Below are positions 4,788 to 38,680 of a stretch of DNA of 42,577 bases, in pieces (position 1 is the first letter of the stretch; the number at the start of each line of letters is the position of its first letter). The stretch is from Candidatus Levybacteria bacterium RIFCSPLOWO2_01_FULL_38_21 (GTDB lineage: Bacteria > Patescibacteriota > Microgenomatia > Levybacterales > UBA12049). The DNA lies in NCBI GenBank assembly GCA_001782475.1, contig MFOT01000024.1:1-42577 (forward strand). The letters are read 5' to 3'. The position numbers and the translations under genes were made by a program. The notes beneath the pieces are model-generated. The model was given only the letters and a program-made list of their open reading frames with translations. It was not told the DNA's origin and did not search any database.

Positions 4788-4820
4788 CCTTTCGTGCTCC
4801 GACCCCTGGGGTCGGAAGCT
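4788..4820. repeat. REP-like palindrome CCGACCCCTGGGGTCGG (left flank of the Y1 transposase)
   Basis: CCTTTCGTGCTCCGACCCCTGGGGTCGGAAGCT. Confidence 0.9.
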
Positions 4821-4826
4821 AAAAAT

Positions 4827-5417
4827 TTATAGGAATGGATCTTTTATTAATACCTTTTCATTTTCTTCAAGTTCGTATTCCACGAAGCTTTTGTAGTCTT
4901 TTGAAGGATTATTTTTGGCAAAATAATTTAAAATAAAAGCTGGATCAACTAATTTATCTTTCATACCTTTAACATACTGGGGGTAGCTCGACCATTCATA
5001 GTTCGCAAGCTCAACCCCTGGGGTCGAAGGAAGAATTTCTATAGGATTGCGGTGGATATAACGCGACAGATGTAATAAATATTCGTCAGTTTCAATTAGC
5101 TTAGCTCGAAAACGACTCTGAAAAAGACTGCCTACTTGCTCGTATTTTATATTAAAATACTTAGCATGGCTTGTGCCCAGTCTCAGCATAAAAGATGTTA
5201 TCGGAATATCTGTGTTTTGCTTAAGAAGAAAATGAAAATGATTTGGTATAAGACAGTAGCACATGATAGTAACACCGAATTTGCTTTTATATTTAAGTGT
5301 TTTTTCCAGAAACCTTTTATAATCTCTTCTTGCAAGAAATACGCTCTGCTTTCTATTCCCTCTGTTATACACATGATAATAAGACCCTTTTTGAAAATAG
5401 CGGGGTGGAGTTGCCAT
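4827..5417 (-). CDS. REP-associated tyrosine transposase (Y1_Tnp), apparently intact
   Basis: YYHVYNRGNRKQSVF, CYCLIPNHFHFLLKQ (HFHF/HUH), GSLFQSRFRAK, LSRYIHRNP. Confidence 0.9.
   Translation of the reverse strand: MATPPRYFQKGSYYHVYNRGNRKQSVFLARRDYKRFLEKTLKYKSKFGVTIMCYCLIPNHFHFLLKQNTDIPITSFMLRLGTSHAKYFNIKYEQVGSLFQSRFRAKLIETDEYLLHLSRYIHRNPIEILPSTPGVELANYEWSSYPQYVKGMKDKLVDPAFILNYFAKNNPSKDYKSFVEYELEENEKVLIKDPFL
5001..5031. repeat. REP-like palindrome inside the Y1 transposase CDS
   Basis: GTTCGCAAGCTCAACCCCTGGGGTCGAAGGA, encoding LPSTPGVELANY on the minus strand. Confidence 0.85.
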
Positions 5418-7574: not shown

Positions 7575-7627
7575 CCTAGGGTGTCAAGGGAAACCCACCC
7601 CTGGGGTGTCAAGGTGGGGGTGTCAAG
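7575..7627. repeat. CCTAGGGTGTCAA...CCACCCCTGGGGTGTCAAGG palindromic element
   Basis: Inverse-orientation relative of the elements at 29893 and 31253. Confidence 0.75.
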
Positions 7628-24029: not shown

Positions 24030-24923
24030 TTAATTTAGTGTAGCCAGAAAATCTTCGAGTTCTTTTGGGAGATAACTTTTAAAAGACGTCATCGTATTAT
24101 TTTTTGGATGGTTAAATGAGATCTTTGATGCATGAAGAAAAAGACGCGGTAAAAGTTTTCTGTCATTTCGTGCTGTTTTTCGCCCTGCGTAAAGCGGGTC
24201 TGAAAAAACCGGATGGCCAAAATATTTTAAATGCACTCTTATCTGATGCGTTCTTCCGGTTTTTGGGTAAAGCTCAAGCAAACTAAGTGATTCTTTTTGT
24301 CCGTCTGATACCTGTCTGCCGGCAGGCACGGCATAATACTTAATACTTAATACTTTATACTCGGTCACAGCTTCCCTTCCTCCTGCCACAATTCCAAATC
24401 TTTTTCTGTTATAAGAAAGTCTTCCAAGCGGAATATTTATTTCTCCTTTATCAGGAACTATTTTCCCGTGAACAAGCGCAGTATATGTCTTCTCTACTCT
24501 TCTTTCTTTAAACTGTTTTTGAAGATTTAAAAAAGAAGCAGGATTTTTTGCAATAAGTAAAATGCCCGAAGTTTCTTTGTCCAACCGATGAACTATACCT
24601 CCCCTATTTATAAATTCTAAATCTAAATTTTCGGAGGATTGCCCATTTGCGAAAGAACTGAAAGCCGTTTGGGTTTTGTTACTTTTAAGTTTTTTATTTC
24701 TAAAAAGGCTTTCGCTTAGCGAGCGGCGCGAACTTTGGTTCTTTGAAAAATCTGAGCGAGCGTCTTGAGCAACATGGGCAACCTCCGAAAAGATCCCCAA
24801 CTTCTTCTCTGCCCAATCTTGTATTGTTTCTTCTTTTGCACTCTCTGATTTATTTACCGTAACACCCGAAGGCTTATCTATTACCAAAAGATCTTCATCC
24901 TCATAAATTATTTTGATTGACAT
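24030..24923 (-). CDS. RluD/RluC-family 23S rRNA pseudouridine synthase with two in-frame insertions
   Basis: GIVHRLDKETSGILLIAK, ALVHGKI, LYPKTGRTHQIRVHLKYFGHPVFSDPLYA; unusual inserts around SEVAHVAQ...NGQSSE and KYYAVPAGRQVSDGQ. Confidence 0.9.
   Translation of the reverse strand: MSIKIIYEDEDLLVIDKPSGVTVNKSESAKEETIQDWAEKKLGIFSEVAHVAQDARSDFSKNQSSRRSLSESLFRNKKLKSNKTQTAFSSFANGQSSENLDLEFINRGGIVHRLDKETSGILLIAKNPASFLNLQKQFKERRVEKTYTALVHGKIVPDKGEINIPLGRLSYNRKRFGIVAGGREAVTEYKVLSIKYYAVPAGRQVSDGQKESLSLLELYPKTGRTHQIRVHLKYFGHPVFSDPLYAGRKTARNDRKLLPRLFLHASKISFNHPKNNTMTSFKSYLPKELEDFLATLN
24628..24791. mobile_element. 164-bp MITE-like structured element with terminal inverted repeats, inside the RluD-family CDS
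   Basis: Left end TTTTCGGAGGATTGCCCATTTGC; right end GCAACATGGGCAACCTCCGAAAA (reverse complement TTTTCGGAGGTTGCCCATGTTGC). Internal nested pairs AAAGAAC/GTTCTTT and GAAAGCC/GGCTTTC. Confidence 0.75.
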
Positions 24924-26918: not shown

Positions 26919-27515
26919 TTATGCTTTTTGCGTGTATGCGCCTGTTCTTGTATCTACTGTTATTATATCGCCTGTTCTTATAAAAAGAGGAACTTTTGTC
27001 TTAATTCCGTTTTCAAGTATCGCATCTTTGAAGACATTTGTTGCACTGTTGCCTTTCGCAGAAGGTCCTGTTTCCGTAACTTTAAGGTTTACTTTTGGGG
27101 GAAGGTTTAAAGAGAGAGGTTCGTTATTATAAAAACTTAAGGAGAAGTTCTCTCCCTCTTTTAAAAATTCATGTCCTGAGAGTTTATCTAAAGAAATACC
27201 AACTTGCTCAAAATTATCAGGGTCCATAAAATAAGCCAAACCTTGCCCTGAGCTCTTGTCCTGAGTTTTACCGAAGGATGTCGAAGGGTCTTTATATAAA
27301 AACTGGATGTCTTTTTTAATAAGATTTATATCGTTAACACGGGCACCGCTTATGAAACTCTTATTTGTTGTTGCACCACTTTTTAAATCCTTTACCTTTA
27401 CTTTAATATTCGCACTCCCCCTGCCCATCTTAATATGTTCGTAGGAAATGACTTGAAAAATTTGCCCCCCGTCTTCAAAAACAGTACCGGCTCTTAAATC
27501 CGTTGCGGAAATCAT
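26919..27515 (-). CDS. efp: translation elongation factor P with in-frame insert
   Basis: MISATDLRAGTVFEDGGQIFQVISYEHIKMGRGSANIKVKVKDLKSG; PPKVNLKVTETGPSAKGNSATNVFKDAILENGIKTKVPLFIRTGDIITVDTRTGAY. The MISATDLRAG start is preferred over 27551. Confidence 0.93.
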   Translation of the reverse strand: MISATDLRAGTVFEDGGQIFQVISYEHIKMGRGSANIKVKVKDLKSGATTNKSFISGARVNDINLIKKDIQFLYKDPSTSFGKTQDKSSGQGLAYFMDPDNFEQVGISLDKLSGHEFLKEGENFSLSFYNNEPLSLNLPPKVNLKVTETGPSAKGNSATNVFKDAILENGIKTKVPLFIRTGDIITVDTRTGAYTQKA

Positions 27516-27541
27516 AATATTTAAAATAAAACAATTGCTTA

Positions 27542-27679
27542 GGAGGTGCAAATTTTCTTTGTTCGCATTTTGAGCTTAACACTCAAAAGTTCTCTATTTA
27601 AAAAATCTATTAATTAAAATAAAATATTGATATTTATATTAAGTATTGCGAACTGCGGAACAAGAAAATTTTGTACCAA
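27542..27679. repeat. Long imperfect inverted-repeat element (copy 1)
   Basis: GGAGGTGCAAATTTTCTTTGTTCGCATTTTGAGC ... GCGAACTGCGGAACAAGAAAATTTTGTACCAA; arms related to those at 32011-32105. Confidence 0.75.
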
Positions 27680-37450: not shown

Positions 37451-38680
37451 GTGATAAAAATAAAACCGCAAACATTAAAGGGTTTTCGAGACTTCTTGCC
37501 CAAAGAGGTAAAAAAAAGACAGTGGCTGATAAATATTTTAATATCGGTCTTTGAGTCTTATGGTTTTGAACCTTTGGAAACTCCCTCTCTTGAGTATGCA
37601 GAAGTTCTCCGCGGTAAATACGGGGAAGAAGAAAAACTAATATATGAATTTGAGACAAGAGGAAAAGATAAAGTAGCACTAAGATATGACCAGACAGTCC
37701 CTCTTTCGCGTGTAATAACTCAATATCAAAACGAATTAGTTTTCCCTTTTAAACGTTATCAAATTCAAAATGTTTGGAGAGGGGAAAATCCTCAGAAAGG
37801 ACGGTACAGAGAATTTATTCAGTGCGATGCAGATATTATCGGCTCCTCCTCCCCTATTGCAGATGCGGAAATACTAAGGCTTGTTCTTGATGTTTACAAA
37901 ACACTTAGGCTTAATATTACTATAAAAATAAACGATAGAGAAAATTTCAAAAACATGGATAAGAAATATGTTTCGGCAATTGACAAACTTGAGAAAATCG
38001 GAGAAAGCGCAGTTCTTTCTGAGATGGTTGATAAAGGAATGGCAAGTGAGGGTGCCAAAAAAGCATTGTCAAGTCTTCAGAAAAAACCACAGACAGCAAA
38101 AATTAAAGAAATACTTTCTGTTCTTAAAAAGATAGGCGCTGATATGGGCAGGATAATTTATGAACCCACTCTTGCCCGCGGTCTCAACTATTATACAGAG
38201 ATGATTTTTGAGACGGTTGCACAAAATAGCTCAGGTTCTTTGTGTTCAGGCGGACGCTTTGATAAATTAATAGGAAAATTCCTGCCTGCCGGCAGGCAAG
38301 GTTCAGGGGTTAATGTTCCCGCGGTTGGTTTTGGGTTGGGGTTTGACAGAACTTTAGAAATTCTTGAGGAAAAAAATCTTATTCCCCAACTAAAATCTTC
38401 CTCAAAATTTCTGGTTACAACATTTAATAAGGATTCTAAAGATAAATCTCTTGAAGTTTACAAAAAATTAAGAGATGAGAGCATCAATTGCGAAATCTTT
38501 CTAGATGAGACTGCAGGTTTGGAAAAACAATTAAAATATGCCGACAAAAAGGGTATTTCCTATGTTTTAATAATCGGACCAAAAGAAATAAAAGAAGACA
38601 AAGCTACTATTAAAAACTTAAAAACCGGAGATCAAAAAACAGTTTCCGTTGAAGAATTGATCAAGCAGTTTAACAATTGA
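37451..38680 (+). CDS. hisS: histidyl-tRNA synthetase with in-frame LPAGRQ insert
   Basis: KGFRDFLPKEVKKRQW, ALRYDQTVPLSRVI, GRYREFIQCDADIIGS, ARGLNYYTEMIFE. GTG start at 37451 follows TATAAT; the ORF-track start at 37274 lies inside the preceding gene. Confidence 0.93.
   Translation: MIKIKPQTLKGFRDFLPKEVKKRQWLINILISVFESYGFEPLETPSLEYAEVLRGKYGEEEKLIYEFETRGKDKVALRYDQTVPLSRVITQYQNELVFPFKRYQIQNVWRGENPQKGRYREFIQCDADIIGSSSPIADAEILRLVLDVYKTLRLNITIKINDRENFKNMDKKYVSAIDKLEKIGESAVLSEMVDKGMASEGAKKALSSLQKKPQTAKIKEILSVLKKIGADMGRIIYEPTLARGLNYYTEMIFETVAQNSSGSLCSGGRFDKLIGKFLPAGRQGSGVNVPAVGFGLGFDRTLEILEEKNLIPQLKSSSKFLVTTFNKDSKDKSLEVYKKLRDESINCEIFLDETAGLEKQLKYADKKGISYVLIIGPKEIKEDKATIKNLKTGDQKTVSVEELIKQFNN

Follow-up and report, generated by a model that had tools for sequence, protein, structure and literature searches.

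The window analysed here, a stretch of 42,577 nucleotides from a genome of the ultra-small Levybacteria, contains a palindromic element lying in frame within a pseudouridine synthase gene. Only metagenome-assembled genomes (MAGs) were considered, and open frames are the basis on which translation is inferred. The features of the window on which our interpretation depends are as follows.

24030–24923, minus strand: host gene, an RluA-family pseudouridine synthase of 297 aa (PF00849; TIGR00005 above cut-off)
24564–24590, minus strand: catalytic motif HRLDKETSG, residues 112–120, intact just downstream of the insert (invariant alignment columns)
24628–24791, minus strand (the coding orientation): whole palindromic element, window copy (inverted repeat, fold, model match)
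24628–24648, minus strand: 3' outer arm in coding orientation, copy-specific, pairing with 24771–24791
24660–24670, minus strand: 3' strand of the inner stem in coding orientation (GGCTTTC side; covarying helix 2, 97% paired)
24703–24713, minus strand: 5' strand of the inner stem in coding orientation (GAAAGCC side), pairing with 24660–24670
24714–24726, minus strand: most conserved core, CGCTCGCTAAGCG, peptide RSLSE, carrying a TAA that closes another frame
24750–24764, minus strand: second conserved core, GACGCTCGC, peptide DARS
24771–24791, minus strand: 5' outer arm in coding orientation
5046–5387, minus strand: Y1/RAYT-type transposase gene, with flanking CCCCTGGGG palindromes at 4803, 5015 and 5453

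The host gene is single-copy, being the only match in its own genome at E ≤ 1e-20. A reading made from the sequence only had assigned it to the RluD family; membership of the broader RluA family is supported by both profiles, but the RluD-specific profile NF008385 is not reached (116 of 351 bits), and the name RluD is loose. The element occupies residues about 45–99 of the protein. AlphaFold, applied to the window protein only, models the insert as a low-confidence loop (pLDDT about 41–60) on an intact, confident core fold (above 90): a predicted disordered segment at an exposed position that the host fold can accommodate. One relative (G079) carries an eroded copy at the same site, its inner stem now reading GAAAATTC/GAATTTTC, paired and in frame.

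The inverted-repeat ends proposed in the sequence-only reading are borne out: the arms at 24628–24656 and 24763–24791 are 72% complementary over 29 nt, with the outer 21 nearly perfect. The nested segments that it listed, GAAAGCC/GGCTTTC (24660–24670 and 24703–24713) and AAAGAAC/GTTCTTT, are all present, and the host frame runs uninterrupted through the element, with no stop, to give exactly the peptide described. The proposed hairpin CGCTTAGCGAGCG needs correction: no sequence of the family is more conserved, but it forms only a weak hairpin; the inner stem of the family is instead AAGYGAAAGCC/GGCTTTCRRTT. The folding energy of the 164-nt segment is −50.8 kcal/mol as RNA (z −4.6) and −32.2 kcal/mol as DNA (z −4.9), and none of 200 dinucleotide shuffles of the element gave an equally good fold.

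A plain DNA search revealed a second copy in the same genome, 79% identical over 134 nt and in frame in a WecG/TagA-type glycosyltransferase, and the peptides of the two copies align (DARSDFSKNQSSRRSLSESLFRNKKLKSNKTQTAFSSFANG and DARSGSFQKQSVRRSLSESLFKDKDFKKSKDQTAFSSFSNG). Further copies came from relatives, and an alignment of 19 copies was used to build a structure-plus-sequence (covariance) model of 149 positions, which matches the window copy, itself a member of the building set, at 24635–24782 with E 3e-29. Searches with this model found about 90 copies in the order, with matches in 32 of 82 genomes; in the family, 31 of 73 genomes were matched, and in a sample of the phylum, 8 of 380. 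Three genomes from beyond the order gave weak matches (E 1e-3 to 3e-3), which we treated as chance. In a pattern scan of 85,462 species, the exact core occurred on nine contigs, each of which carries the label Levybacteria, Levyibacteriota, Patescibacteria or unclassified MAG. It was absent from 2.9 million viral contigs, and we reject viral carriage of the element on that basis. A known structured RNA family is likewise rejected, as no family in Rfam 15 matched above its gathering score and the only match, far below the cut-off, was at chance level.

Restriction to RluD orthologues, which the sequence-only reading had named as evidence against its proposal, is not what we see: coding copies span about 15 unrelated gene families, mostly essential genes, and other copies lie at intergenic sites. 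Among the 92 copies aligned, 44 fall within long open frames and share a single frame of the element; the remainder are mostly intergenic. The genome of the window has seven copies, six of them coding (in the RluA-family gene, WecG, DnaX, GT4, uL3 and bL17). Hosts identified by profile are uL3, NusA, GT4, Prs, an AlkD-like protein, two Mur ligases (MurD among the hosts), Tgt, bL17, WecG, RadA, DnaX, TopA and LeuRS. The uL3 gene is a host in 11 genomes, with the insert in the C-terminal tail, DnaX in 7, WecG in 4 and the RluA-family gene in 2; a single LeuRS gene of G023 holds three copies, and there are other LeuRS copies too.

Very probably, the window segment belongs to a dispersed family of palindromic mobile elements in Levybacterales (CPR/Patescibacteria) that are non-autonomous and tolerated in coding frames. 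By this explanation, a copy would land in a gene in a permissive orientation, phase and loop, and would then be transcribed with it and, on translation, add about 50 hydrophilic residues, an insertion that the host protein would survive. The insert would persist as a tolerated selfish insertion, and the element would be inherited vertically, erode over time, and have seeded new sites in the past.

The anatomy of the element shows how a single frame is kept open. In coding orientation, the order is a copy-specific outer arm; TCGGCAnnCAC...GATGACGCTCGC; a 5' loop, near-constant in length and variable in sequence; CCGCTCGCTAAGYGAAAGCC; a variable loop; GGCTTTCRRTTCAYCT...GGAnTGCC; and the second copy-specific outer arm. 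Direct reading of the sequence shows that the other forward frames are closed by invariant parts, with a TAA from the core and a TGA from GATGACGC, and thus only one forward frame is open. Frame-preserving loop lengths are a property of the coding copies only: the 5' loop (loop 1) is off-frame in none of 44 coding copies but in 34 of 48 non-coding copies, and the second loop in 2 coding and 32 non-coding copies.

The stems, in contrast, are maintained by compensatory change in coding and non-coding copies alike. In an alignment not fitted to the structure, 18 of 26 pairs have changed on both sides and pairing is 84.6% (30–48% when slid); after fitting, coding copies pair at 90.5% (33–48% when slid) and non-coding copies at 88.3%. 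Because copies and pairs are related, these pairing figures, like the loop and codon-position figures, are descriptive and do not represent independent trials. The outer ends carry little information across copies, and the outer arms are complementary within each copy yet unlike between copies, a pattern that would be explained if the stems were kept by arm-to-arm re-templating during replication (quasi-palindrome correction) and not by selection. This account concerns the structure only and is compatible with a mobile element; we regard it as nearly as probable as its converse. The equally high pairing in coding and non-coding copies agrees with it, as do the nearly perfect 21-nt arms of the window copy and the copy-specific complementarity just outside the model, where arms of coding copies pair better with their own partner (−5.35 kcal/mol) than with that of another copy (−2.35 kcal/mol), a signal that fades beyond about 10 nt. 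However, selection for a mobility hairpin predicts an identical pattern, and the inner cores are conserved in sequence, which templating alone does not require.

The nearest neighbour of a copy comes from the same genome in 36 of 92 cases (4.1 expected from shuffled labels) and, for 17 of the 44 coding copies, shares the host gene (4.3 expected from shuffled labels), which fits the expectation from spread within lineages plus vertical descent. No copies are identical, the best identity within a genome being 84.5%, and present-day or recent movement is therefore not demonstrated. In one genome (G004; L126, L173–L182) about twelve AT-rich copies, diverged and with their frames closed, resemble one another by up to 84.5%; they form a separate subfamily that is perhaps the most recently active.

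Elements of the classical MITE or REP type, whose ends are recognised by a DDE or Y1/RAYT transposase acting in trans, would share the small size, terminal inverted repeats and hairpins of the element, and the genome of the window has five Y1_Tnp matches, one of them within the window. Nonetheless, we judge this origin unlikely. Across 73 genomes, the element and Y1_Tnp do not co-occur (16 of 28 vs 25 of 45; Fisher p = 1.0), the core was not found in 30 Y1 loci, the outermost arms are not conserved in the family, and the Y1 gene of the window is flanked by a different palindrome, CCCCTGGGG, which is probably its own REP. A Y1/RAYT transposase as mover is accordingly rejected. A further CCCCTGGGG palindrome lies at 7598. 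The description of the insert as MITE-like thus holds insofar as it is a mobile, in-frame element but does not extend to formal MITE membership, given that the outermost arms are copy-specific, no parental transposase was found in the Y1 family, and no target-site duplication is visible at empty sites, which lie in length-variable linkers where exact junctions are unreadable.

That each host protein has exapted the peptide as a loop under selection for function, as the term "domesticated" in the sequence-only reading implied, appears highly improbable. The insert is kept at the same site in orthologues of DnaX, uL3, WecG and RadA from several genomes, which speaks for exaptation, but it is predicted to be disordered and is eroded or missing in relatives, with empty or short sites in orthologues of RadA and the AlkD-like gene. 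Moreover, divergence across the three codon positions is nearly flat in the element (43/38/47%, compared with 32/22/56% in host genes), so that tolerance seems a better description of the peptide than functional selection, and the encoded amino-acid sequence seems nearly unconstrained. The peptide is 23% serine, with 15.5% hydrophobic residues against 34% in the hosts, and it is alike across hosts because the DNA element is common to them. Practically no probability attaches to an ordinary, non-mobile loop extension gained by RluA-family enzymes in this lineage, with DNA palindromes that arose by chance: the linker before HRLD does vary in length across the family, but the same DNA element, with covarying stems, recurs in about 15 unrelated gene families and between genes, which refutes an extension confined to RluA.

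The element is accompanied by at least two further in-frame palindrome families in the same genomes. The second family (GGGTCCTGCC...GTCACCC) has matches in 20 of 73 genomes of the family. In the genome of the window it lies in frame in an IF-2-like gene, a host named from sequence and not by profile (G000:C8:44399-44485, L234; peptide GPAPTFPPVSAPPITSEMRAVGSPSSRVTPFSEN), and it also occurs in the DnaX linker of three relatives (G001, G007 and G091; L226, L225 and L227, respectively). At some intergenic sites, the first element (copies L017, L105, L115, L154) is flanked on both sides by second-family arms. The third family (ENFRVHNA...GANAHSENF) is found in an RluA-family gene of G008 (L040) and in RadA of G062 (L211), where it seems to have inserted into a remnant of the first element. 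In the closest relatives, other palindromic inserts occupy the same DnaX and RadA sites. Shorter palindromes are also present. CTGCCGGCAG occurs at 24316–24325 and 38286–38295 of the window; the former lies in frame in the RluA-family gene (VPAGRQV), which thus carries two palindromic inserts. An elongation-factor-P-like gene at 26919–27551 includes an in-frame DPSTSFGKTQDKSSGQG stretch of the short-repeat kind, and relatives have similar short in-frame stretches (SAKASAG, PARNASASVAGG and FDFAQDK).

We tentatively propose that an RPE-like population of several palindromic families may have arisen independently in Levybacterales, inserting in frame and nesting in essential genes, with arms kept complementary by arm-to-arm templating. 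If this is true, inserted selfish DNA would keep supplying new protein segments to the reduced genomes of Levybacterales. In-frame palindromic selfish DNA has so far been known chiefly from Rickettsia and Wolbachia. An independent case in the CPR, where dozens of copies lie in genes for ribosomal proteins, a tRNA synthetase and replication, opens two questions to testing: how a structured mobile element persists within essential coding sequence, and whether insertions of this kind contribute to protein evolution in reduced genomes.

Among known systems, the element shares with prokaryotic MITEs its size, imperfect terminal inverted repeats, lack of its own transposase, and a mixture of intragenic and intergenic copies; unlike in MITEs, its terminal arms are not conserved between copies. 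No target-site duplication was visible in the length-variable linkers, and no parental transposase was found in the Y1 family. REP/RAYT repeats are likewise imperfect palindromes, and Y1 genes are present in the same genomes, but the Levybacteria element is several times longer, often intragenic, and without Y1 co-occurrence. PARCEL repeats (PMC2996958) are also palindromic protein-coding DNA with a horizontal distribution; they are described as intragenic tandem amphipathic repeats, whereas the Levybacteria copies are mostly single hydrophilic insertions in essential genes.

The closest likeness is to the palindromic elements of Rickettsia (RPEs, especially RPE-1 to RPE-3) and Wolbachia. RPEs are palindromes of about 150 bp that lie in frame in unrelated genes, encode a conserved peptide exposed on the protein, and occur as several families per genome (PMC3767692, PMC10969869; RPE features were also drawn from PMC3733652), and a 2024 review considered in-frame palindromic selfish DNA conceivable in other prokaryotes (PMC10969869). 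Literal word matching in an open-licence paper collection returned no description of elements of this kind from Levybacteria or Patescibacteria. Like the Rickettsia and Wolbachia elements, which are 100–150 bp palindromic repeats in many copies, the Levybacteria element is a dispersed palindrome of ~100–150 bp with many copies that leaves unrelated ORFs unbroken in one frame; the likeness extends to insertion in housekeeping genes with a conserved, solvent-exposed peptide, to intergenic copies, to several families per genome, and to orthologues with common sites. Unlike RPEs, it belongs to a different phylum, and, judged by its exact core, it is absent from the Rickettsia genomes in the GTDB set; outer arms that are complementary but copy-specific, and a 5' loop of near-constant length, are features shown here in Levybacteria. 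The best reading is that the element works like an RPE but constitutes an independent family in another phylum.
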